A DNA stretch of 64,000 bases from Bacteroidota bacterium (lineage in GTDB: Bacteria; Bacteroidota; Bacteroidia; B-17B0; Aurantibacillaceae). The notes below the pieces were generated by a model that searched no databases, was not told the origin of the DNA, and worked only from the letters and a program-made list of their open reading frames with translations. Position 1 is the first letter of the stretch; the number at the start of each line of letters is the position of its first letter. A program made the translations under genes and the position numbers. Shown here piece by piece: positions 29,617 through 41,464 of this stretch. The DNA lies in the NCBI GenBank assembly GCA_020403265.1, contig JADBXZ010000051.1, positions 1 to 64,000 on the forward strand. The letters are read 5' to 3'.

Positions 29617-29739
29617 TACCAATGTGAAAAAATAATTATGCCAATAATTATTTTTGCTACAGTGGTTTATACCGATTAGAAATAAGTTTGGCGCAATGAA
29701 GTGAAACAAAATTGGACCATTGCTTATTTCACTTCGGTA
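29617..29739 (+). mobile_element. MITE-like non-autonomous element (123 bp)
   Basis: Imperfect terminal inverted repeats TACCAATGTGAAA / TTTCACTTCGGTA; possible 3-bp TAA duplication; internal palindromes; second copy at 1-64 whose boundary coincides with the TACC terminus; no ORF. Confidence 0.65.
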
Positions 29740-29761
29740 TAAAAAGGTAACAAGGCAATTT

Positions 29762-29985
29762 GATTTTCAATCTCGGTACCAAACAACCATTAATGCCTCT
29801 GCAGAAAGGTATGGGCAGCTTTAACAAAACCTGAACTTGTAAAACAGTATTTTTTGGTACAGATTTAATTACAAATTGGTTACCTGGTAGTCCGCTTAAT
29901 TTTAAAGGTGAGTGGCAAGGCCAGCCATACGAGGACTAAGGAACTGTTTTAGAATATGAACATTGCAAAACTTTAACCCGAAACA
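29762..29985 (+). pseudogene. Decayed AHSA1/SRPBCC-family gene
   Basis: Frame-shifted reading: TTINASAERYGQ / AALTKPELVKQYF / FGTDLITNWLPGSPLNFKGEWQGQPYED*GTVLEYEHCKTL, interrupted by stops and frameshifts. Confidence 0.75.
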
Positions 29986-30059
29986 AACAACTGAAAACAT
30001 TCAACTGTCTAAGATCTAAGTGTTTGTAAGCATTTCAAGCTTATAAGTATTCTAAGAAC

Positions 30060-30331
30060 AAAACCAAAGCCAGAATCCCACAGAATAATGGAATTTGCTA
30101 ACTATTTAATAGAGCTATTCAAGATGAGTTTTATATCATCGCCTTCAAAATAAAAATTTACTCTTCATTGGAGGAGGTGCAAAAAGATCTTGATTAATGG
30201 ATGATTTAATACATTCAGGGAAGAGCGCACAAAAGAAAATGTTATTTTGAAAAACTACTCTTCAAACTTTCCAGAGTTAACTATCCTTGGCGAAAGAAAA
30301 ATTGTTGCACAAAAATTTAATAGAATCCTAA
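30060..30331 (+). pseudogene. Decayed IS481-type (rve-fold) transposase, C-terminal fragment
   Basis: Reads KTKARIPQNNGIC*LFNRAIQDEFYIIAFKIKIYSSLEEVQKDLD*WM...; later frame LSLAKEKLLHKNLIES*; resembles C-terminal region of IS481-like transposases. Confidence 0.7.
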
Positions 30332-30395
30332 AAAAAGGTCTTTTTTTAGATTAAGCTTTGACTATTACAATTAAATTTTTTTCAAGGTTTATAAA

Positions 30396-31934
30396 TTAAT
30401 TTTTTAAAATAGTTTTCATTTCTTCTATATTGGGAGCTTTTTTGATTAACTTTTCTAATTCTTTAGATTCTTTATCTTCGATTACATTGGAAAGTTTTAT
30501 TAAAATACTAATAAATTCTTTACCTTTTGATATTTTATCAGATGATTCAGAGAATTCAATATTTAGTGAATTTATAAGTTGATTGCCTTTTAGGCAGATA
30601 TCCTTTTTACTTTTTAGTTCAATATATTTAAGTGAAAGTGAATCATAATATTGTTTTCTTTTACTTATAGTATAATTGATTGATTTTGTTAGAAGTTGTT
30701 TTCTGTCTTTTGCGGATAAGGAATCGTTAGAGAATAAAGAATCATTGTATTGATAATTTTTTTGTTCAAGTATTTTATAGATTTCTTTGTTAATAAAATC
30801 AATTTTGGAAATTACTTCTTTTTTACGTGAATCGAAATAATAAGTTGGATAAGTAAGTTGTTTGTCAAATTTTTGATTATTTGTATCTATTAACATTTTG
30901 TAAGCTATTCTTAGTTTATTTTTAGATTTTTTCCAATCACTATTTTTAGCAAGATTATCTGCATCGGTTATTATAACTTCAATGTTTTTCTTAACGGAAT
31001 CAAATTTTAATTTTTTTTGGTTTTCTAATTTTTTCTTTTCATCTAATTCCATTTTTCGTTTTATTTCATTTTCTTCATATTTTTTATTTGCTTCTTCGTT
31101 TTCTTTCAATCTTTTCATTGTATTTTCAAAATCAATCATTTCAGTTGTTTTATTGCCTTTATCATCATAAGATTCAAGAAAGCCTGGTTTTTCTCCTTTT
31201 ATAATAGTTCCATTTTCTCGATACTCATATTTAAAATCATTGCCAATCATGTGTAATTTTAACTTGCCTGAATTGTAAAATTCTCTCAATGAATCTGGTG
31301 ATTCTTCCTCACCTTTTTTATTTATAGTTTGGCAATTAGCACAATAAAATTTTAAACTCAATATTTTACCATTAACATAATAGGTTATTACTTTTTTGTA
31401 GTTATCAGCTTTAATAATTTCCCTGTAAATTTGCTTATTTGAGTAATAATATTTATTAACTTCTGAACAATTGCCATCTGTACATGAAGTTGTTCCAGTG
31501 GCATATGAGTATGGCCCTTGATTATCATTACTTGTTCTAATCGATAAATTCCATATTCCTGTCATTTTATCATCCTTAAAGTTTCCTTGCTTTAAAATAA
31601 CGTTATAATCATTTAAAACATAGCTTTTATATTGGCCATTTAAAATGCCATCTTTATAATTTATAACTTCATTAGGATATTGTCTACCGGAAATAAAAAC
31701 AAAAGATTCATAAGTTCCATTTAATCTACCATTTAAAAAAATAGCTTTCACAATTAATGAAATACCATCATTCGCATATTTTTTATACCAACCATTTTTC
31801 TCACCATTTCCATTAACTTGAAACTCTTCTTTAAGAGTTGTTTTTAAGTATTCGTCATAATAGGTTTTTTTATTTGTCTGTGATATACTATTGTATCCAA
31901 TAATAATTATCATTATGAGAATTTTTACTCGCAT
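30396..31934 (-). CDS. Secreted MORN-variant/YwqK-like repeat protein with C-terminal coiled coil
   Basis: Signal peptide; GEKNGWYKKYANDG, NGRLNGTYESF, KDGILNGQYKSY, FKDDKMTGIW repeats; Lys/Glu coiled coil. Confidence 0.75.
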   Translation of the reverse strand: MRVKILIMIIIIGYNSISQTNKKTYYDEYLKTTLKEEFQVNGNGEKNGWYKKYANDGISLIVKAIFLNGRLNGTYESFVFISGRQYPNEVINYKDGILNGQYKSYVLNDYNVILKQGNFKDDKMTGIWNLSIRTSNDNQGPYSYATGTTSCTDGNCSEVNKYYYSNKQIYREIIKADNYKKVITYYVNGKILSLKFYCANCQTINKKGEEESPDSLREFYNSGKLKLHMIGNDFKYEYRENGTIIKGEKPGFLESYDDKGNKTTEMIDFENTMKRLKENEEANKKYEENEIKRKMELDEKKKLENQKKLKFDSVKKNIEVIITDADNLAKNSDWKKSKNKLRIAYKMLIDTNNQKFDKQLTYPTYYFDSRKKEVISKIDFINKEIYKILEQKNYQYNDSLFSNDSLSAKDRKQLLTKSINYTISKRKQYYDSLSLKYIELKSKKDICLKGNQLINSLNIEFSESSDKISKGKEFISILIKLSNVIEDKESKELEKLIKKAPNIEEMKTILKN

Positions 31935-31938
31935 ATTT

Positions 31939-32160
31939 TTAATCTTTTGGGACTAATATTAATTTAATTTTATTTGAATTTTGACTTGACAAATCGCCTG
32001 ACATAGAAACTATAAAACTACCTTTAGCTCTGGCAGATTTTGTTTTTTTAATATTTACCTCCATTACAACTTCTTTAATTAAATATGAATTTTTTTCAGG
32101 ATATCGCTGAGCTTTATTAATTTGTTGTAGTGTTTCTTTTACTAATTCAGATAATTCCAT
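31939..32160 (-). CDS. 73-aa protein resembling trypsin-co-occurring domain 2 (Trypco2)
   Basis: MELSELVKETLQQI ... VVMEVNIKKTKSARAKGSFIVSMSG.....NKIKLILVPKD: short helix then beta-rich segment ending in I-K-L-x-L-x-P; 4 nt upstream of 31934 ORF. Confidence 0.5.
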   Translation of the reverse strand: MELSELVKETLQQINKAQRYPEKNSYLIKEVVMEVNIKKTKSARAKGSFIVSMSGDLSSQNSNKIKLILVPKD

Positions 32161-32210
32161 TATATGATTTATTAATTGATTTATAAGGCTAAAATAAGAA
32201 AGTTTTTTTA

Positions 32211-32232
32211 ATTATAGCACAAGTGCTATAAT
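32211..32232. promoter_or_regulatory. Operator-like palindrome 1
   Basis: ATTATAGCAC-AA-GTGCTATAAT, 10-bp perfect arms, between divergent genes. Confidence 0.6.
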
Positions 32233-32240
32233 ATTTCTAT

Positions 32241-32252
32241 AGCATATATGCT
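32241..32252. promoter_or_regulatory. Operator-like palindrome 2
   Basis: AGCATATATGCT perfect 12-bp palindrome, centre 25 bp from palindrome 1, sharing AGCA..TGCT core. Confidence 0.55.
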
Positions 32253-32263
32253 CTATTTGATAT

Positions 32264-32524
32264 GTGAGAAAACCAAAGAAAAATAAAGCAAAAAGGGTCT
32301 TAATTTACGATGAAATTGGCTTAAAATTACTAGCTAAGAAATTAAAAGAAGTCAGAACCAAAAAAGGCTATACTCAAGAAGAATTAGCATATAAGGCAGA
32401 AATAACATTATCACAAATCGCCAGAATTGAAACAGCAGTGACAAATCCAACTGTTAGTACAATATTTTGCCTAGCTAAAGCATTAGAAATTAATACAGCA
32501 GAATTATTCGATTTTAGATTATAG
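32264..32524 (+). CDS. XRE-family helix-turn-helix transcriptional regulator
   Basis: GTG start; LKEVRTKKGYTQEELAYKAEITLSQIARIETAVTNPTVSTIFCLAKALEINTAELFDF. Confidence 0.9.
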   Translation: MRKPKKNKAKRVLIYDEIGLKLLAKKLKEVRTKKGYTQEELAYKAEITLSQIARIETAVTNPTVSTIFCLAKALEINTAELFDFRL

Positions 32525-32841
32525 AAATTTTAATATATATCTTGAATTAAATATTTGAGGTGTATTGATTCATTTTCTTTTAATATAGAATTAGAGTTTA
32601 TTAATTACGTTTGGAAATATATAGTTATAAGAAACCAGCCGGACAATTTCGTTATGACAAGACAATTCATCCTGCCACTAATCACCCGTAGACTTTGATC
32701 TTAACATTGGACTGTTTCTCTCAGACAGGTGCAATATTTTTTCCTTAACAAATGGACGCTATTTATTAAGCCAGATATATGAACAAAAACTGAGACCCAA
32801 AGTATAAATTCGTAAATTTGTTTAGCTTAAAAATTAAACCT

Positions 32842-33069
32842 ATGAAAAAAGCGACTTTAAAAAACATTGTTTACAAACAATCAGGAGAATTTGAAATATA
32901 CTTAGAAACAGATTCGGGACAGGAAATGAATTATTTCGTCAATAACATTGATGGACAGCGAGCTACCAGTGTGCAATTAAACTCCTTAAAAGGAAAACAA
33001 ATTTTCTTTGATATTCATAAGGAACAATACACTAACTCAAAATCCTCAATAGACATAGAAACGAATTGA
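32842..33069 (+). CDS. Small hypothetical protein
   Basis: 75 aa from MKKATLKN; no recognised family. Confidence 0.45.
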   Translation: MKKATLKNIVYKQSGEFEIYLETDSGQEMNYFVNNIDGQRATSVQLNSLKGKQIFFDIHKEQYTNSKSSIDIETN

Positions 33070-33247
33070 CCTGTGTGAGGACAAGCTGTGTGCGTCTGGC
33101 AGCTTATAACACCAAGCCAAGCGGCGGGATAACAAGGGCTTCGGCTTAAATCAAAGTCCTCCTCTCTTCGCATCGTCGGGACGCTCTTTTGTTTTTGCCT
33201 CCGCTAAAAAACATGTATCTTCTTATGTAAGTATAGTGCGGGTATAC

Positions 33248-33453
33248 TGATGAATTTTCATAAAGGCGCCTGCGCCTGCTTGCAAAACGATAACTCTTAT
33301 CCTAACAAAACGGATTTAAATGAATTAATTTCTCTAAGTGAGAATAGCCAAAATTTTTCGAAAAAATTGTTTCTTATTGTCCTGTTATTAAAAATAAAAA
33401 ACAAATTACCTCTTTGTTCCTTAATTAAATCTTGATATTATGAAAATTCATCA
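33248..33453. mobile_element. Possible MITE-like element with 16-bp perfect inverted terminal repeats
   Basis: TGATGAATTTTCATAA (33248-33263) and TTATGAAAATTCATCA (33438-33453); interior has no credible gene. Confidence 0.45.
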
Positions 33454-33519
33454 ATTTTCCAACTGTATTCTGAGACAGTACATTTAAAATCAATATAACT
33501 AGTTTATAATTTTTTTAAA

Positions 33520-34209
33520 TTAATCTCTAATTATTTTAAGTGTTTTAAAATTAGTTACATCTTCTTGAAAATTGACAAAGTAAACACCTTCTTGAAAAGT
33601 AGATAAATCCAATTTAAAATTATTTTTACCTTGCAGAGCATTTAGATTTTTTACCAATAACTCTCTACCTAATAAATCTGTTACAATTATTATTAGGTTT
33701 TGGTTTTTGGTAAAAGTTGAGTTTATATTAAAAATACCTTTGCTTGGATTAGGATAAACATTAACATTAATTAAATTATCAGCAACTTCTTTTAATGAAC
33801 TACTTGTGCTTACCGTAAAAGTGATTGACTTTAAAACACTGTCTAAATAATTACAATTTGATAAAGGTAGACTACTATAATATGCCATAAAATTAAGTGT
33901 CCAAGTACCCGCAGGCAGAATACCAATACTCGTAGTATCTCTGTAATTGAAAGGTGTAAAAAGCGAACCATCACAATACGAATTTTTCAATATAATTAGA
34001 TTATTGGAATAATTAACATTGAAGCTAGTTGAAGTTAAAGTACCAATCATAGCTGGTAAAAAAACATGAGTTGCAACTTTAATATTACTGTTAGTTATGG
34101 GACTACTAGGTATAATACTTGGATTAGAAACACTTATAAAAGACAGCTGGGAATATGTAGTTAGACATAATAAAAGTATAAGTAAAACAGAAGAAATTTT
34201 TTTATTCAT
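33520..34209 (-). CDS. Small T9SS type A sorted secreted protein (paralogue A)
   Basis: MNKKISSVLLILLLCLTTYSQ signal; CTD NVYPNPSKGIFNINSTFTKNQNLIIIVTDLLGRELLVKNLNALQGKNNFKLDLSTFQEGVYFVNFQ. Confidence 0.8.
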   Translation of the reverse strand: MNKKISSVLLILLLCLTTYSQLSFISVSNPSIIPSSPITNSNIKVATHVFLPAMIGTLTSTSFNVNYSNNLIILKNSYCDGSLFTPFNYRDTTSIGILPAGTWTLNFMAYYSSLPLSNCNYLDSVLKSITFTVSTSSSLKEVADNLINVNVYPNPSKGIFNINSTFTKNQNLIIIVTDLLGRELLVKNLNALQGKNNFKLDLSTFQEGVYFVNFQEDVTNFKTLKIIRD

Positions 34210-34249
34210 AACTATAAATTTAATTTAACTAGTTAGTAATTTTTTCAAA

Positions 34250-34945
34250 TTAATCTTTAATAATCTTAACTGTTTTAAAATTAGTTGCACCTTCTTGAAA
34301 ATTGACAAAGTAAACACCTTCTTGAAAAGGAGATAAATCCAATTTAAAGTTATTTTCACCTTGAAGAGCATTTTGATTTTTTACCAATAACTCTCTACCC
34401 AACAAATCCGTTACACTAATTGTTAAGTTTTGATTTTTGGTAAAAGTTGAGTTTAAATTAAAAATACCTTTACTTGGATTAGGATAAACATTTACATTAA
34501 TTAAATTATCAGCAACTTCTTTTAGTGAACTACTTGTGCTTACCGTAAAAGTGATTGACTTTAAAACACTGTCACTTACATTACAACTAGTGAAAATTTG
34601 ACTGCCGTAATAAGCATTAAAGTTTAATGTCCACACACCTGCGGCTAAAGTTCCAATACTTGTTGTATCTTTCATTATATGTCCAGCTGTTAATGCGCCA
34701 TCACAGTATCTGATTTTTAACGTAACAATATTATTAATGTTATCAACAAAAAAATTATTTGAGATCTTCCAGCCAATATTTGGAGTTTTAACTTGCGTTG
34801 CTACTTTTATTATATTATTTGAAGTAGGCTGATTGGGTATGATTGTTGGATTTTCAACGCTCAAAAATACAAATTGTGCTTTGACTAAAATTATTTGAAA
34901 AAAACACAAATACAGCATCAGTTTTGTTTTATACATATAATTCAT
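34250..34945 (-). CDS. Small T9SS type A sorted secreted protein (paralogue B)
   Basis: Similarity to 33520-34209 (DTTSIG.L.AG.WTLNF.AYY, CN..DSVLKSITFTVSTSSSLKEVADNLINVNVYPNPSKG). Confidence 0.8.
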   Translation of the reverse strand: MNYMYKTKLMLYLCFFQIILVKAQFVFLSVENPTIIPNQPTSNNIIKVATQVKTPNIGWKISNNFFVDNINNIVTLKIRYCDGALTAGHIMKDTTSIGTLAAGVWTLNFNAYYGSQIFTSCNVSDSVLKSITFTVSTSSSLKEVADNLINVNVYPNPSKGIFNLNSTFTKNQNLTISVTDLLGRELLVKNQNALQGENNFKLDLSPFQEGVYFVNFQEGATNFKTVKIIKD

Positions 34946-34951
34946 AAAAAT

Positions 34952-37900
34952 TTAGTATTTTATTATTTTAACTGTTTTGAAATTAGTTGCGGCTTCTTTA
35001 AAATTGACAAAATAAACACCTTCTTGAAAAGTAGATAAATCCAATTTAAAGTTATTTTCACCTTGAAGAGCATTTTGATTTTTTACCAATAACTCTCTAC
35101 CCAACAAATCCGTTACACTAATTGTTAAGTTTTGATTTTTGGTAAAAGTTGAGTTTATATTAAAAATGCCTTTACTTGGATTAGGATAAACAACTAAATC
35201 TGAAATAGGATTGTGTGTGTCATTAATGCCCATTACCCCTGTTGGATCATAGATGTAAAGTGATGCGGCAGTGTTTACAATTGAATTATCAGCCGGGTAA
35301 AATTTATTGTGAAGTGTAGAATAATGAAACCAAGTACGCATCACAACCTGACTTTGCGAAAAAGATACAATTTCACAATAATAAGGTCTATCAACCCTTA
35401 TTGTACTTGAATCTCTGTTCCCGATACATTCCTTAGTATGCGGCCAAACAGCAACCAAACTCTGTGTTGGTGATAATGAAAAATTTAAAGTAGTTGTTTG
35501 TTCATAAACTATTGTATTGTGTGTACCTTGTGGCACACCTTGTAATTGTGGCCAATTCCTTGGCACATTAACAGCAATGGGTGTAGAACTTTTTACACCT
35601 GTAGCAAAATGATTTAAATCTGCATGTTTAACAGTGTAAAAACCCTTTTTTAATTTTGAAATTGCCCTGTTAACATTAACTCTACCCCAGCCTGTCGCTT
35701 CATCATAACCAACCGTTTCAGAATAAGTTCCAGTTGTAATATCGGTGGCCGTTCTTTGTAAAATATATTCGCAATCCTCACCAGCTAAATTATCCCAAGA
35801 TGGTAAAGGTGAATTTATATAACTCATCATTAAAGCCGATGCACCTGAGACATGAGGAGTAGCGAATGAAGTTCCATCATCCTTTATGTAGGTATTTCCA
35901 ACATAAAGAGTTTTAACAAGCGAGTCAGTTCCTGGTGCGATAAAATCGATATTAGTTCCGCGGCCAGAATTGTTCGAACAGTTTGTCCCAAGTACACAAT
36001 AATTTCCATCAGTGCCTGAAGAACCAACAGCCATAACCACTTCGTCACCAATGTCTGCTGGGAAAAGTATCAATATAGCATTAAAATTTCCTTTTGCCGC
36101 GCATATTGCTGCACCGTGTTTGTTGGCAAGATTAATTTGTTCTGTTTCCGGCCAGTACAAATTAAAAGGATTATTTGCACCGCCTGTTCCAATACTAAAA
36201 TTAAGAACATTTAATCCATTACCCCCAATACTCGGACTCGTAACCTCATTAAAAACACCTTGTATAAAACTACTTGTATAACATACGCTAAATGCGCATA
36301 TTTTACAATCATGCATAGTAACACCCTGTTTGCCTATACTAGCATCGCCACCCGCTATACCGGCAATTCCAATACCATTGTTGCGCACAGCACCTATTAT
36401 GCCTGAAACAGCTGTCCCATGATTTCCCTCATCTAAGTTAGACAAGGAAGTGTTGTTTACATAATTGTAACCACCGGTTGTAACGCCTGTATAATCTGAA
36501 TGATTAAACTCAATTCCAGAATCAAAAACACCAACTTTAATATTGTTTTCGCCTGTTGTAAAAGCCCAAGCAGAATCAACATTAACATACCCATTTGGGT
36601 AGCTTGCAGATTGATTTAAACTGTGTTGCAAAACATACTCAGGATCATTACTTGCAAAAGTCCTATAAACTCTATTATAATTGGCGCTGATTATATCAGT
36701 ATATAATTTCATAAGCCTTCTTCCAATTGTATCTATACCAAGGCATTCAGGTAACTTAATCAATAATGAACTATAAACCGGCGGTAGCTTAACAGTGTCA
36801 CCCATTCTACTTATGGACAATGTATCGTTGGACGTTGCCTTATAAAAAATTTTTCTTGTCTCAATTTCCGCACTTTTGAATTGACATTTACCTCTTAAAA
36901 TAGAATCCATTTTACTGCAAGTTGAATCTTGAATAAAGTCATTTAACTTTCCAAACAAAAAGTCCTTATTATTGATTGCACCTAATTTCAATGTAGCCTT
37001 ATCAAATCGAACAATCAATTCCTTACTTTCAATCTCTTCATTTGCGTTAAGAAAAACAGGAGTTTGGTTAAAATCTTTGTATTCATATTTTACCGTTACA
37101 TTCTGGTCAATAATGCCGTTAAATGATTTTGCACTTAACACCACAAAATTACCATCCACAAGCATGTCTAGTAATTCATCTTTAAGATTACTGGACCCGT
37201 TATAAATGGCCTCTAAATTTTGAACACCATTTACATTGAATCTTAATAATGCAGCATCTTTATTACTATTTTTGGTATAGTTTGCGCCAACAAATACTTC
37301 GTTTGTGTTTTTAATTATAACTTTTATTCCTTCTGCATCACTTTGGTTAAAAACTGGTTGCTTTTTTGTTAAATATAATTGCGTTCCTGCCGTGTTATAC
37401 TTCAATAATACGAGTTCCTTGGTAAGGTTTGGTCTCGTAAAATAACCTGTTACATAAACATTTCCACTAGGATCAACAGTTACGTCATTTCCTTGATCAC
37501 TTTTTCCATAACCATCAACAATTTTCGACCATAATAAATTCATACTCGCATCATACTTAAGGAGTTGAATGTCAAAATCAATTCCATTGCTACTTGTACT
37601 ACCGGTAACGTATATGTTACCAAAGGCGTCTTTAAATTGTCCGGTAACAATATCTTTCGCATTCCCAACATTGGCCTGCCTTTGAACTTGCATTTGAGCA
37701 CCTGTATTAGAATTATATTTAACAGTTGTAAAATCCATATTGTTATTAAATGAACTAGATGAACTGCTACCACTGACAATAATATTATTTGAGTTGTCAA
37801 TACAAATACCTGTTGGTAAATCTAAACCATTGCTAAAGTTGTATCTACTTACCCATTGTTGAGTACCTGCAGAATTAAATTTGATCGTTACATAATCTAC

Positions 37901-38398
37901 TTGAGCGAATAAACCACCAAAACTTGCACCACTAACATAAACGTTATTACTTGCATCTATAACTACACTTGTGGCAACATCATAATTATTGCCCGGTCCA
38001 TTATAATACTTAACCCAAATGGGCGAACCACCTGTCGGTGCATACTTCACAACCGTTAAGTCATAACCATTCAATCCATTCACATAAGCAGCGCCTACAA
38101 CAATAATATTCCCTGCATTATCTTTAGTATTAAATGTACTAAAGGCCTTACCGGTTCCGGCAGTATGTTGTTGATTCCATTGTATAATAATGTTTCCGTT
38201 TAAGCAAGTTGTCTGCATATTGTTTTGTGTACTCGTCACTTTTTGGTTAGAGCTTACAACGTAACTGTTTGCACCAACCTTCAAAATGGGACCTAAATTA
38301 GCAGTGTCGGTATTTCCAGTTACTACTTCACTAACTTTTTGTACTAAACCGGTAGTAGTTGTTTGGCTATTTGATAACTTAATAATTGCCAATGACAT
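34952..38398 (-). CDS. Subtilisin-like S8 protease with N-terminal SBBP/propeller-like repeats and T9SS type A CTD
   Basis: VGVFDSGIEFNHSDY, NHGTAVSGIIGA, DGTSFATPHVSGASALMMS catalytic motifs; GSVYVTGYFTR-like repeats; CTD. True start probably 38424 with a 1-nt frameshift in A6. Confidence 0.87.
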   Translation of the reverse strand: MSLAIIKLSNSQTTTTGLVQKVSEVVTGNTDTANLGPILKVGANSYVVSSNQKVTSTQNNMQTTCLNGNIIIQWNQQHTAGTGKAFSTFNTKDNAGNIIVVGAAYVNGLNGYDLTVVKYAPTGGSPIWVKYYNGPGNNYDVATSVVIDASNNVYVSGASFGGLFAQVDYVTIKFNSAGTQQWVSRYNFSNGLDLPTGICIDNSNNIIVSGSSSSSSFNNNMDFTTVKYNSNTGAQMQVQRQANVGNAKDIVTGQFKDAFGNIYVTGSTSSNGIDFDIQLLKYDASMNLLWSKIVDGYGKSDQGNDVTVDPSGNVYVTGYFTRPNLTKELVLLKYNTAGTQLYLTKKQPVFNQSDAEGIKVIIKNTNEVFVGANYTKNSNKDAALLRFNVNGVQNLEAIYNGSSNLKDELLDMLVDGNFVVLSAKSFNGIIDQNVTVKYEYKDFNQTPVFLNANEEIESKELIVRFDKATLKLGAINNKDFLFGKLNDFIQDSTCSKMDSILRGKCQFKSAEIETRKIFYKATSNDTLSISRMGDTVKLPPVYSSLLIKLPECLGIDTIGRRLMKLYTDIISANYNRVYRTFASNDPEYVLQHSLNQSASYPNGYVNVDSAWAFTTGENNIKVGVFDSGIEFNHSDYTGVTTGGYNYVNNTSLSNLDEGNHGTAVSGIIGAVRNNGIGIAGIAGGDASIGKQGVTMHDCKICAFSVCYTSSFIQGVFNEVTSPSIGGNGLNVLNFSIGTGGANNPFNLYWPETEQINLANKHGAAICAAKGNFNAILILFPADIGDEVVMAVGSSGTDGNYCVLGTNCSNNSGRGTNIDFIAPGTDSLVKTLYVGNTYIKDDGTSFATPHVSGASALMMSYINSPLPSWDNLAGEDCEYILQRTATDITTGTYSETVGYDEATGWGRVNVNRAISKLKKGFYTVKHADLNHFATGVKSSTPIAVNVPRNWPQLQGVPQGTHNTIVYEQTTTLNFSLSPTQSLVAVWPHTKECIGNRDSSTIRVDRPYYCEIVSFSQSQVVMRTWFHYSTLHNKFYPADNSIVNTAASLYIYDPTGVMGINDTHNPISDLVVYPNPSKGIFNINSTFTKNQNLTISVTDLLGRELLVKNQNALQGENNFKLDLSTFQEGVYFVNFKEAATNFKTVKIIKY
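35033..35157 (-). repeat. CTD-coding segment identical to 34331-34455 over 125 nt
   Basis: Direct alignment by eye, 125/125 identical; third, more diverged copy at about 33601-33725. Confidence 0.9.
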
Positions 38399-38491
38399 TA
38401 AGATAAATAGAATTGTTTTTTCATCGTTTGTTGTTTTTTAAGGTTTAAATAATCTTCCCCTAAAAAAAGGGGGCGTAATTTCAAAACTACT

Positions 38492-38603
38492 ATTCTCAGG
38501 AACAGCGACGAACCCTTAACACAGATAGTATGAAACACGCCCTTTCGGGCGTTTTCATTAACTGTTTCTGTGTTAATTCTTTTTTTGTCGCTGTTTTGAG
38601 AAT
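38492..38603. repeat. 112-nt segmented fold-back (imperfect palindrome) element
   Basis: Paired blocks: ATTCTCA/TGAGAAT, AACAGCGAC/GTCGCTGTT, TTAACACAGA/TCTGTGTTAA, ATGAAA/TTTCAT, ACGCCC/GGGCGT with TTTC loop. Confidence 0.8.
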
Positions 38604-38762
38604 TAATTTTCAGTTAGGAAAACGCATTATTTTAAAGTTGGTTTTTATTTCATTTAATATTCAAATTTTAATCAAATTTAAAACAAATTTTGAGAATTCC
38701 AAACTTAACTTAAAATTAAGGTACTTTTATTTAATAAGCGATGTTTATAAAAGTTCTAAAAA

Positions 38763-40835
38763 TCAAATCTTCACCCCAATCACACACACATCATCAACTT
38801 GCTCCAAATTTCCTTTCCATTGGTTGAAAAAATGTTTCAAGGCATTGGCCTGTTCGCTTGGCGGAGACTGGCAATTAGCAACTAATACATCGCAAAACTG
38901 TTTGTATTTTAATTTCTTACCTTTTGGTCCGCCAAATTGATCTGGATATCCATCGGTAAACAAATAAATGGTATCGCCTTTTTCAACGTCTAATTTTTGA
39001 GTAGTAAACTTTTGTATATTATCTTCTATAAAAGCACCTACCGGAAACTTATCCCCTTTTACTTCAATAATTCTGCCATCCTTTTTCAAATGATAAATAG
39101 GATTGTTGGCACCGGCAAAGCGCACTTCCCCGCTCTTTTTATTAATTGAAACTAGGGTAATATCCATCCCGTCTTGAATGGATGATTCGTTGTAACTTTG
39201 GTGTAAAGATTGGGTTAGGTATTCATTAACCGTATCGAGAATTTTACCCGGCTCGTAAATGTTTTTCTCTAACACAGCCTTATTTAATAAATTATAATTA
39301 ACGATGCTCATCAAAGCACCCGGAACGCCATGTCCGGTGCAATCAGCTGCTGCCACAAATACATATTCCTCTGTTTGCTCCAACCAATAAAAATCACCAC
39401 TTAAAATATCCTTTGGTTGGTACAACACAAACGAGTCGGGTAAAACAGTACGCCAATATTTTAAAGGTGGTAAAATAGCTTCCTGAATGCGTGTGGCGTA
39501 CTTAATACTATCGTTAATGTCTTTGTTCTTTTCCTCAACCAAATGCTTTTGCAGTTCAATGATGCTATTTTTTTCGCTAAGTAAGTTGTTTGCATGACGT
39601 TGTTTTGTAACACCCCTTACCAACAAAAATGAAACGCCAATTAAAAGCAAACAACCTCCCAAAGCTGCGTATATAATCAATTGCTTGTTGTTGGCCTCTA
39701 ATTCTTTTTTCTCCAGTTCTAATTTAGTTTTAGCCGTTTCATACTTGGTTTGCATGTCGTTTAAAGACTTAATACCTTCACGAGAATAAATACTGTCCTT
39801 AATTGTTAAGCATGAATCCTGAAAAGCAAACGATTTAGGGTAATTCCCTAATTTGTGGGCCACCTCAGCTAAATTATAATATAAATTTTCTTTTACTGCC
39901 AAATCATTTTGGTCAACATACTTTAATGCTTCATCGTAGTATTTTTCGGCGTTTACAAAATCTTTATTATTATAAGAAATATTGCCAATATTAATGTAGC
40001 AAATTGCAATAGCATTAAGTCGGTTATACTTTTTATTTATTTCAATTGCTTCAAAATAATATTTATTGGCAGTAGTATACAATTTTTTAGCTGAAAAAAC
40101 CGTACCTAAATTTGCAAGTAACACTGCTACTTCTACATCGTGTCCACGACTTCTCCGAATTTTTAAGGCTCTTTCATAATATTCAATAGCTAAATCATTA
40201 TTATTTTGATTAGAATAAATGTTTCCCAAACCTACATATGCAGCGGCAACATGGCTACTGAATCTATTCGACTTAGCTAATTCCAAAGATTTATTATAAA
40301 ACTCAATGGCTTTAGCAATATTTTTAAGTTTGTAATTAATTAACCCGATTTGAAAATAAGCCGAAGCTATAAAATTTTGATCTTGTTGCTTTTCAAAATC
40401 TTTTAAAGAAGAAAAAAACAAATCTATTGCCGTTTTATAATCGTTTGTTTTTAAATAATATTTGCCCAAGGCATAATTAGCTTTGGCAAGGTGTTGTTGC
40501 TTTTTAAATTCCTGTGATTTTAGTTTCAATTGAGATAAGGTTGTAAATGCTTTATTGAGTTGATTTAGTCTTATGGCATAAGTGCCATAATAATAAGCAG
40601 CATTCAAGTAATTTACTGTGTCGTACTCTTTTACCTCAAAATATAGTCTCTCTGCTAATTTGCTCCCCTCTATTTCATCAACATAAATAAACTCTTCTAA
40701 CATTTGCCACTGTAGAGCGATTTTACAATTCTCTGTTTTGCAATTGGAAAGTTCCTGCTTAAGAGAATCAACAGATGGCTGAGCCCAAGCCTGAGTCAGA
40801 AAAACAAAAAAAACTATGAATAACCTGTATTTCAA
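38763..40835 (-). CDS. TPR-repeat, TM protein with C-terminal SpoIIE/PP2C phosphatase domain
   Basis: SGDFYWLEQ...ADCTGHGVPGALMS, YLFTDGYPDQFGGPKGKK; TPRs; TTG start at 40835 gives LKYRLFIVFFVFLTQAWAQ signal peptide; tool start 40862 lies inside a terminator hairpin. Confidence 0.85.
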   Translation of the reverse strand: MKYRLFIVFFVFLTQAWAQPSVDSLKQELSNCKTENCKIALQWQMLEEFIYVDEIEGSKLAERLYFEVKEYDTVNYLNAAYYYGTYAIRLNQLNKAFTTLSQLKLKSQEFKKQQHLAKANYALGKYYLKTNDYKTAIDLFFSSLKDFEKQQDQNFIASAYFQIGLINYKLKNIAKAIEFYNKSLELAKSNRFSSHVAAAYVGLGNIYSNQNNNDLAIEYYERALKIRRSRGHDVEVAVLLANLGTVFSAKKLYTTANKYYFEAIEINKKYNRLNAIAICYINIGNISYNNKDFVNAEKYYDEALKYVDQNDLAVKENLYYNLAEVAHKLGNYPKSFAFQDSCLTIKDSIYSREGIKSLNDMQTKYETAKTKLELEKKELEANNKQLIIYAALGGCLLLIGVSFLLVRGVTKQRHANNLLSEKNSIIELQKHLVEEKNKDINDSIKYATRIQEAILPPLKYWRTVLPDSFVLYQPKDILSGDFYWLEQTEEYVFVAAADCTGHGVPGALMSIVNYNLLNKAVLEKNIYEPGKILDTVNEYLTQSLHQSYNESSIQDGMDITLVSINKKSGEVRFAGANNPIYHLKKDGRIIEVKGDKFPVGAFIEDNIQKFTTQKLDVEKGDTIYLFTDGYPDQFGGPKGKKLKYKQFCDVLVANCQSPPSEQANALKHFFNQWKGNLEQVDDVCVIGVKI

Positions 40836-40838
40836 AAC

Positions 40839-40866
40839 AAAAAAGCCGGTGCACATGTGCACCGGC
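40839..40866 (-). terminator. Rho-independent terminator of 40884-41288 gene
   Basis: Perfect palindrome GCCGGTGCACATGTGCACCGGC followed on minus strand by T6. Confidence 0.85.
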
Positions 40867-40883
40867 CTCTAATTTAATCATTT

Positions 40884-41288
40884 CTATTGATTAGCAGTTA
40901 ATCTCAATGAAGTTGCTTTTGGTTTTCCACCTACATTCACCATGATGTATCTCACATTGCTGTTCACCACAAAACCCATCTCTTTTGCAAATGCCTGTTC
41001 AAATTCTATTGGATTACCAAATCGGTCATTTAAAACACCAATTCCGGTTTCGTAATTAATACTTTGTATGGTGCCGCGCTCAACAGGATCCAAAGATGCA
41101 CCGTAAGTAACACCACCTGATACAACAGTTTCAAATTGTACAATCATGTCTTTTACCAAACCCAATTGTTCCCCATAGGGTTGTACGTATGGGTAATCCA
41201 CTCGCGTTGATGTATCGGTTACTGTTCCTGTTGATCGCATTGAACCCGGGTCTGTTTTTACGTCTTTTACTTTTCCTCTAATGGCCAT
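40884..41288 (-). CDS. Conserved-looking hypothetical protein
   Basis: 134 aa, intact ORF with its own terminator; no family recognised. Confidence 0.65.
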   Translation of the reverse strand: MAIRGKVKDVKTDPGSMRSTGTVTDTSTRVDYPYVQPYGEQLGLVKDMIVQFETVVSGGVTYGASLDPVERGTIQSINYETGIGVLNDRFGNPIEFEQAFAKEMGFVVNSNVRYIMVNVGGKPKATSLRLTANQ

Positions 41289-41464
41289 AGTTTTATGTTT
41301 TTAATTGGTTAATTGCCTCTAATATAAACCTAATTAATTAAAAACAAAAGTTCATTAAACAACTATTTTACAAGTGGAGAAATTTGATTACAGATGTTAT
41401 TATTTGGTAACATCTGCTCAATCTATTATTAACAATTAATTCATTAGGCCGACTGTGAAACGTT

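Follow-up and report, generated by a model that had tools for sequence, protein, structure and literature searches.

A recurring XRE regulator-operator unit in Bacteroidota, a probable controller-protein-like switch opposite variable cargo genes

A conserved unit of about 360 bp, made up of a GTG-start, apparently leaderless XRE regulator gene together with its operator, recurs in Bacteroidota opposite divergent cargo genes. It is limited by the cargo promoter on one side and by the XRE stop codon on the other. In the window, the name used here for the whole 64,000-nucleotide stretch of Bacteroidota DNA that was analyzed, the cargo is a two-gene operon encoding a probable Trypco2-domain protein and a secreted MORN-like/coiled-coil protein. 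Read from the sequence and by analogy, the unit is probably a compact, autoregulated switch resembling the controller (C) proteins, with operators that would cover both its own promoter and that of the cargo. The genes and the larger features are:

32264-32524, + strand: XRE/HTH_3 regulator, 86 aa, with a GTG start (open reading frame listing)
31939-32160, - strand: first cargo gene, 73-aa Trypco2-domain protein (open reading frame listing, PF19631 match)
30396-31934, - strand: second cargo gene, 512-aa exported MORN-like/coiled-coil protein (open reading frame listing, export signal)
29619-41462, unstranded: strain-variable island with the cassette inside (comparison with genome G021)
29973-30058, unstranded: fragment of a MITE-like dispersed repeat (seven other genome copies)

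Checked against the sequence and its open reading frames, the three genes and two palindromes lie where the first-pass annotation had placed them. The XRE gene is divergent from the operon, in which the 73-aa reading frame comes first and is separated from the 512-aa one by the 4-nt gap already noted. The view of this module as a self-contained regulated cassette gains more support than that annotation could see, as the XRE gene and its operator recur together elsewhere; the trio of genes, in turn, is not the conserved unit.

The regulator, its operators and the changing cargo

The 86-aa protein belongs to the HTH_3/XRE family (Pfam E 9.8e-13), and in a profile search the closest solved structures were C.AhdI (E 1.6e-12), followed by C.Esp1396I and C.BclI. 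Relatives that are 57-68% identical occur in Flavobacterium and uncultured Bacteroidota, and all 20 intact XRE loci examined, the window included, begin with GTG. This type of XRE is patchy, since a phylum-wide sample yielded it only in the window's own genome. The Flavobacterium cases come from a separate scan of named genomes by exact short peptides, so their number is a lower bound biased to close relatives. Across the host family, Flavobacterium and uncultured Bacteroidota, the XRE relatives stand opposite genes other than the cargo of the window.

Two putative operators occupy the region between the divergent genes, 25 bp apart from centre to centre:

32211-32232, unstranded: O2, putative operator ATTATAGCACAAGTGCTATAAT, centre about 42 bp upstream of the XRE start codon, with the core palindrome TATAGCACAAGTGCTATA exact at 32213-32230
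32238-32255, unstranded: O1, putative operator TATAGCATATATGCTCTA, 13/14, overlapping the XRE -7 element

The operator consensus, ATTATAGCAnnnnTGCTATAAT, spans 22 bases with the half-site TATAGCA. O2 carries all of its half-site bases (14/14) in the window and in 20 of 22 aligned loci, and the distance from the operator centre to the XRE start downstream is 41-43 bp in 20 loci from Flavobacterium and uncultured Bacteroidota. O1 is kept in L039, L041 and L055 and is degenerate in Flavobacterium. The motif was built from the aligned loci, the scan of the remaining genome sequence being the independent part; exact copies in 87 relatives amounted to five sites, each adjoining an XRE gene of the window type. 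Among 18 further genomes the exact operator was present in 16, one of which has an additional copy. Taking both sets together, nearly all exact copies adjoin an XRE gene of this type, and the operator is close to unique in each genome. By an order-3 Markov estimate, TATAGCACAAGTGCTATA is expected by chance 0.03 times per genome. In L044, where the XRE is more divergent, both arms of the operator are altered together (TGACAGCA...TGCTGTCA), as a protein binding the dyad would need. Elsewhere in the window's own genome, at L047:3643-4917 (contig C69), one more XRE gene has a perfect TATAGCATATATGCTATA operator; opposite it, in divergent orientation and at a contig end, is the gene for a secreted protein of T9SS type (CHU_C).

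The genes opposite the regulator change even where the regulator hardly does. Of the 72 pairs of loci whose XRE DNA is 75% identical or more, only four have their cargo in common and four their downstream DNA, and the divergent cargo differs even at 80-89% XRE DNA identity. The cargo ranges over MORN proteins, an M43 peptidase with a T9SS tail and several lipoproteins (one PKD, one RHS-repeat and others unassigned); a DUF6175 operon occurs as well. By a simple hydrophobicity rule, and with several loci closely related, an export signal is predicted in 15 of the 19 distinct genes that come first in the cargo, the background rate being 33% among 214 open reading frames (p ~6e-5); L061, L065 and L066 are near-duplicate Flavobacterium loci, as are L062 and L070.

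Divergent regulator-target pairs are common in bacteria, and the cargo differences could reflect turnover at shared variable sites in place of movement of the switch. The XRE might be an ordinary local autorepressor that has remained next to an accessory gene and has neither an activation step nor special mobility or cargo preference. We consider this unlikely: conservation stops at the cargo promoter on one side and at the XRE stop codon on the other, nearly all pairs differ beyond both of these limits, and the cargo is biased toward export. A bolder proposal is that the cassette of regulator and operator is portable and spreads among Bacteroidota as a unit, having been joined repeatedly, within islands of defence or polymorphic-toxin genes, to secreted or envelope proteins of unrelated kinds, the cargo being expressed on entry and then shut off. 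This stays tentative, a possibility that we would entertain without expecting it to hold. No earlier description of the module was found in the open-access literature.

Toxin-antitoxin systems offer another comparison, in which the XRE would be an antitoxin and the divergent cargo its toxin. HipB- and HigA-type antitoxins of similar size do match the XRE profile, and many loci carry recombinases or transposases (L041, L058, L066, L068, L069 and L070). A type II antitoxin, however, is normally co-transcribed with its toxin. Here the two genes are divergent, and the cargo is unrelated between loci and mostly exported. By organisation the XRE and its cargo are not a toxin-antitoxin pair, and we regard the idea as highly improbable.

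A proposed switch between two promoters

In F. johnsoniae the promoter -7 element extends from T-12 to G-5, and the -33 motif is weak (PMC6847099). Laid over the TTTTGATAA-GTG arrangement found at the XRE genes, this geometry would let transcription begin on the GTG or right beside it and give a leaderless message. The corresponding element in the window is:

32252-32259, + strand: putative XRE promoter -7 element TCTATTTG, its last G falling at -5 for a transcript that begins with the GTG (geometry from PMC6847099)

On the other side, TATATTTG occurs in the Flavobacterium cargo promoter some 15 bp past the centre of O2, so that O2 would span the cargo -33 region; the cargo promoter of the window is without the clear TATATTTG of Flavobacterium. 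A sigma-70 promoter scan gave no more matches than chance, Bacteroidota using another consensus, and Rfam returned no match within 29.6-33.6 kb.

In the switch proposed here, an XRE dimer would sit on O2, between the two divergent promoters. With O2 over the cargo -33 region, the bound regulator would block cargo transcription. A centre near -42 is the position typical of activators, and from this distance to the leaderless XRE promoter the same dimer may raise its own expression, while O1, which overlaps the -7 element of that promoter, would set an upper limit. The cargo would be on after arrival of the module in a cell that has no XRE, or after loss of the XRE, and off once the regulator accumulates. 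Switches of the controller type delay restriction enzymes in a newly entered cell, and the logic would be that of the restriction-modification C proteins with exported proteins in place of the endonuclease. The cargo would presumably bring its benefit at the cell envelope, be it in competition, in conflict with phages and mobile elements, or under stress.

The two halves of this model are not equally firm. Repression of the cargo appears to be the safer half, even if blocking by O2 is argued from position, the -33 motif of F. johnsoniae being weak; the weaker half appears to be that the XRE activates its own promoter. Negative feedback by way of O1 would not be a general feature, given the degenerate O1 of Flavobacterium.

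The cargo of the window and the conflict-system question

The 73-aa protein had been likened to Trypco2, and it does match Pfam PF19631 (E 1.1e-5, 26.0 bits against a curated cut-off of 24.2) over essentially its whole length, residues 1-71 aligning with model positions 1-78. The match is marginal: in one whole-genome profile search the protein scored 24.4 bits and in a second it was missed. Profile-profile comparison by hhalign against four other Bacteroidota Trypco2 proteins reached only a 55% probability. Membership in the family is thus probable from the sequence but not secure. An AlphaFold model is of low confidence (pLDDT 58) and too poor for a fold search. As the first cargo protein of the window, it is not exported.

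Beyond the window's genome, Trypco2 carriers number one among 87 host-family genomes and four of 396 in the phylum sample, and none of these five has a MORN or XRE partner near the gene, which in G200 lies at the contig end with only one flank visible. No relatives were found in viral contigs, plasmids or phages. The trio is not supported as a functional unit, Trypco2 co-occurring with the XRE or the MORN-like protein in no other genome searched. Two outcomes had been named beforehand as speaking against the original reading, a missing profile match and a missing trio in other genomes; the second was found, and the first was not.

The 512-aa partner has an N-terminal export signal by the hydrophobicity rule. 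Its predicted structure combines a MORN-like beta sheet (residues 20-134) with a helical C-terminal half, and the model has no PDB match below E 1e-3, its resemblance to MORN sheets such as SET7/9 reaching E 7e-3. No significant Pfam match, MORN_2 included, is present in the protein, and three aligned relatives give weak MORN_2 matches. It is like the exported MORN_2 or YwqK-like proteins of Bacteroidota in its repeat-like N-terminus and export signal and in the MORN_2 matches of its relatives, and differs from them in its long helical C-terminus and its lack of a significant Pfam match. Relatives in G057 and G080 also stand opposite XRE genes; none were found in 84,980 species genomes or in viral contigs. 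MORN-type cargo is repeated in the window, L044 and L056. A different XRE opposite an exported MORN protein occurs at L020:5611-9155, adjoining a BfiI-type restriction enzyme (BfiI_DBD E 8e-76); this pair was set apart, its XRE being only 26% identical and bordering the restriction gene.

For Kaur et al. (PMC7159879), Trypco2 is defined by adjacent trypsin-like peptidases within VMAP systems, and stray Trypco2 genes lie near other putative conflict genes (PMC10907252). Together with the PF19631 match, the low GC content and the island setting, these reports give some footing to a reading in which an NTP-dependent conflict system, regulated by the XRE, uses Trypco2 as its adaptor and the secreted MORN protein as either sensor or effector. 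The link to such systems is not supported here, though. No trypsin-like peptidase gene is present among the window's open reading frames, VMAP-C has no match anywhere in the genome, and PADLOC returned no match for either cargo protein. With the trio also confined to this genome among those searched, we consider this reading decidedly unlikely. The locus resembles VMAP-type NTP-dependent systems in that its 73-aa protein passes the PF19631 cut-off; it differs from them in that its Trypco2 gene belongs to an XRE-controlled operon with a secreted protein. It is not a VMAP system, and a conflict role of the cassette is possible.

Island setting and comparison with controller proteins

The description of the region as an island marked by mobile elements holds in part. 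In its favor are the low GC content (24-26% in the cassette against 33-39% in the flanks), the MITE-like fragment, a broken AHSA1 gene at the edge and absence from the nearest relative. This relative, G021, whose RNase Y is 97% identical, lacks 29.6-41.4 kb, and its corresponding flanks enclose only a methyltransferase-like gene of 208 aa; the strain-variable stretch around the module measures 11.8 kb. The MITE-like repeat is about 200 bp long, its dispersed copies being 74-83% identical and some of them lying at contig ends. The AHSA1/SRPBCC fragment is located at 29830-30010, between RNase Y and the cassette (Pfam E 1.2e-5, reading through a stop). A suspected transposase fragment near 30.1-30.3 kb has no Pfam match and is not claimed. 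Further along the same island, 33520-38398 encodes three T9SS-sorted proteins whose C-terminal tails are nearly identical, among them a subtilase with beta-propeller repeats.

Neighbours of the switch elsewhere give the impression that its loci lie in defence islands. For instance, L057 adjoins a GajB homologue (E 1e-250, Gabija-like), and weaker PADLOC matches occur near L056, L058, L069 and L072, where ATPase matches may cross-react. In three Flavobacterium genomes (L064, L066 and L071), RHS core fragments that resemble displaced polymorphic-toxin tips are found close to the XRE module.

If nearly the same switch serves interchangeable exported proteins, the 22-base operator next to a GTG-start XRE gene would be a simple marker with which to find accessory envelope proteins of Bacteroidota that are still uncharacterised. 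The exchange of one regulator between cargo genes that are unrelated could then also be put to the test. The locus would also warn against inferring function from a single instance of a gene trio, Trypco2 being just the cargo of the window strain.

The closest known systems are the C proteins, among which C.AhdI and C.Esp1396I act by activation and then repression through paired operators (PMC3758141, PMC3115060). The differences are clear. The half-site TATAGCA stands in place of the GAC of C.Esp1396I (PMC3758141), with GAC/GTC boxes absent; the operator centres lie 25 bp apart, whereas the whole site of standard C systems measures about 35 bp (PMC3115060); and the target gene is divergent, variable and mostly exported. 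No linked endonuclease or methyltransferase genes were found in the window module or opposite the XRE relatives. Because a check for GAC boxes and for linked restriction genes found neither, the XRE is not filed as a C protein. The likenesses are nevertheless extensive: a small, single-domain XRE with C.AhdI, C.Esp1396I and C.BclI as its best structural matches, two palindromic operators at its own promoter (14/14 and 13/14), a patchy distribution in accessory loci, and operator positions (O2 near -42, O1 over -7) from which both activation and repression are plausible. By this analogy the XRE appears to work like a C protein, although it is not classed as one.
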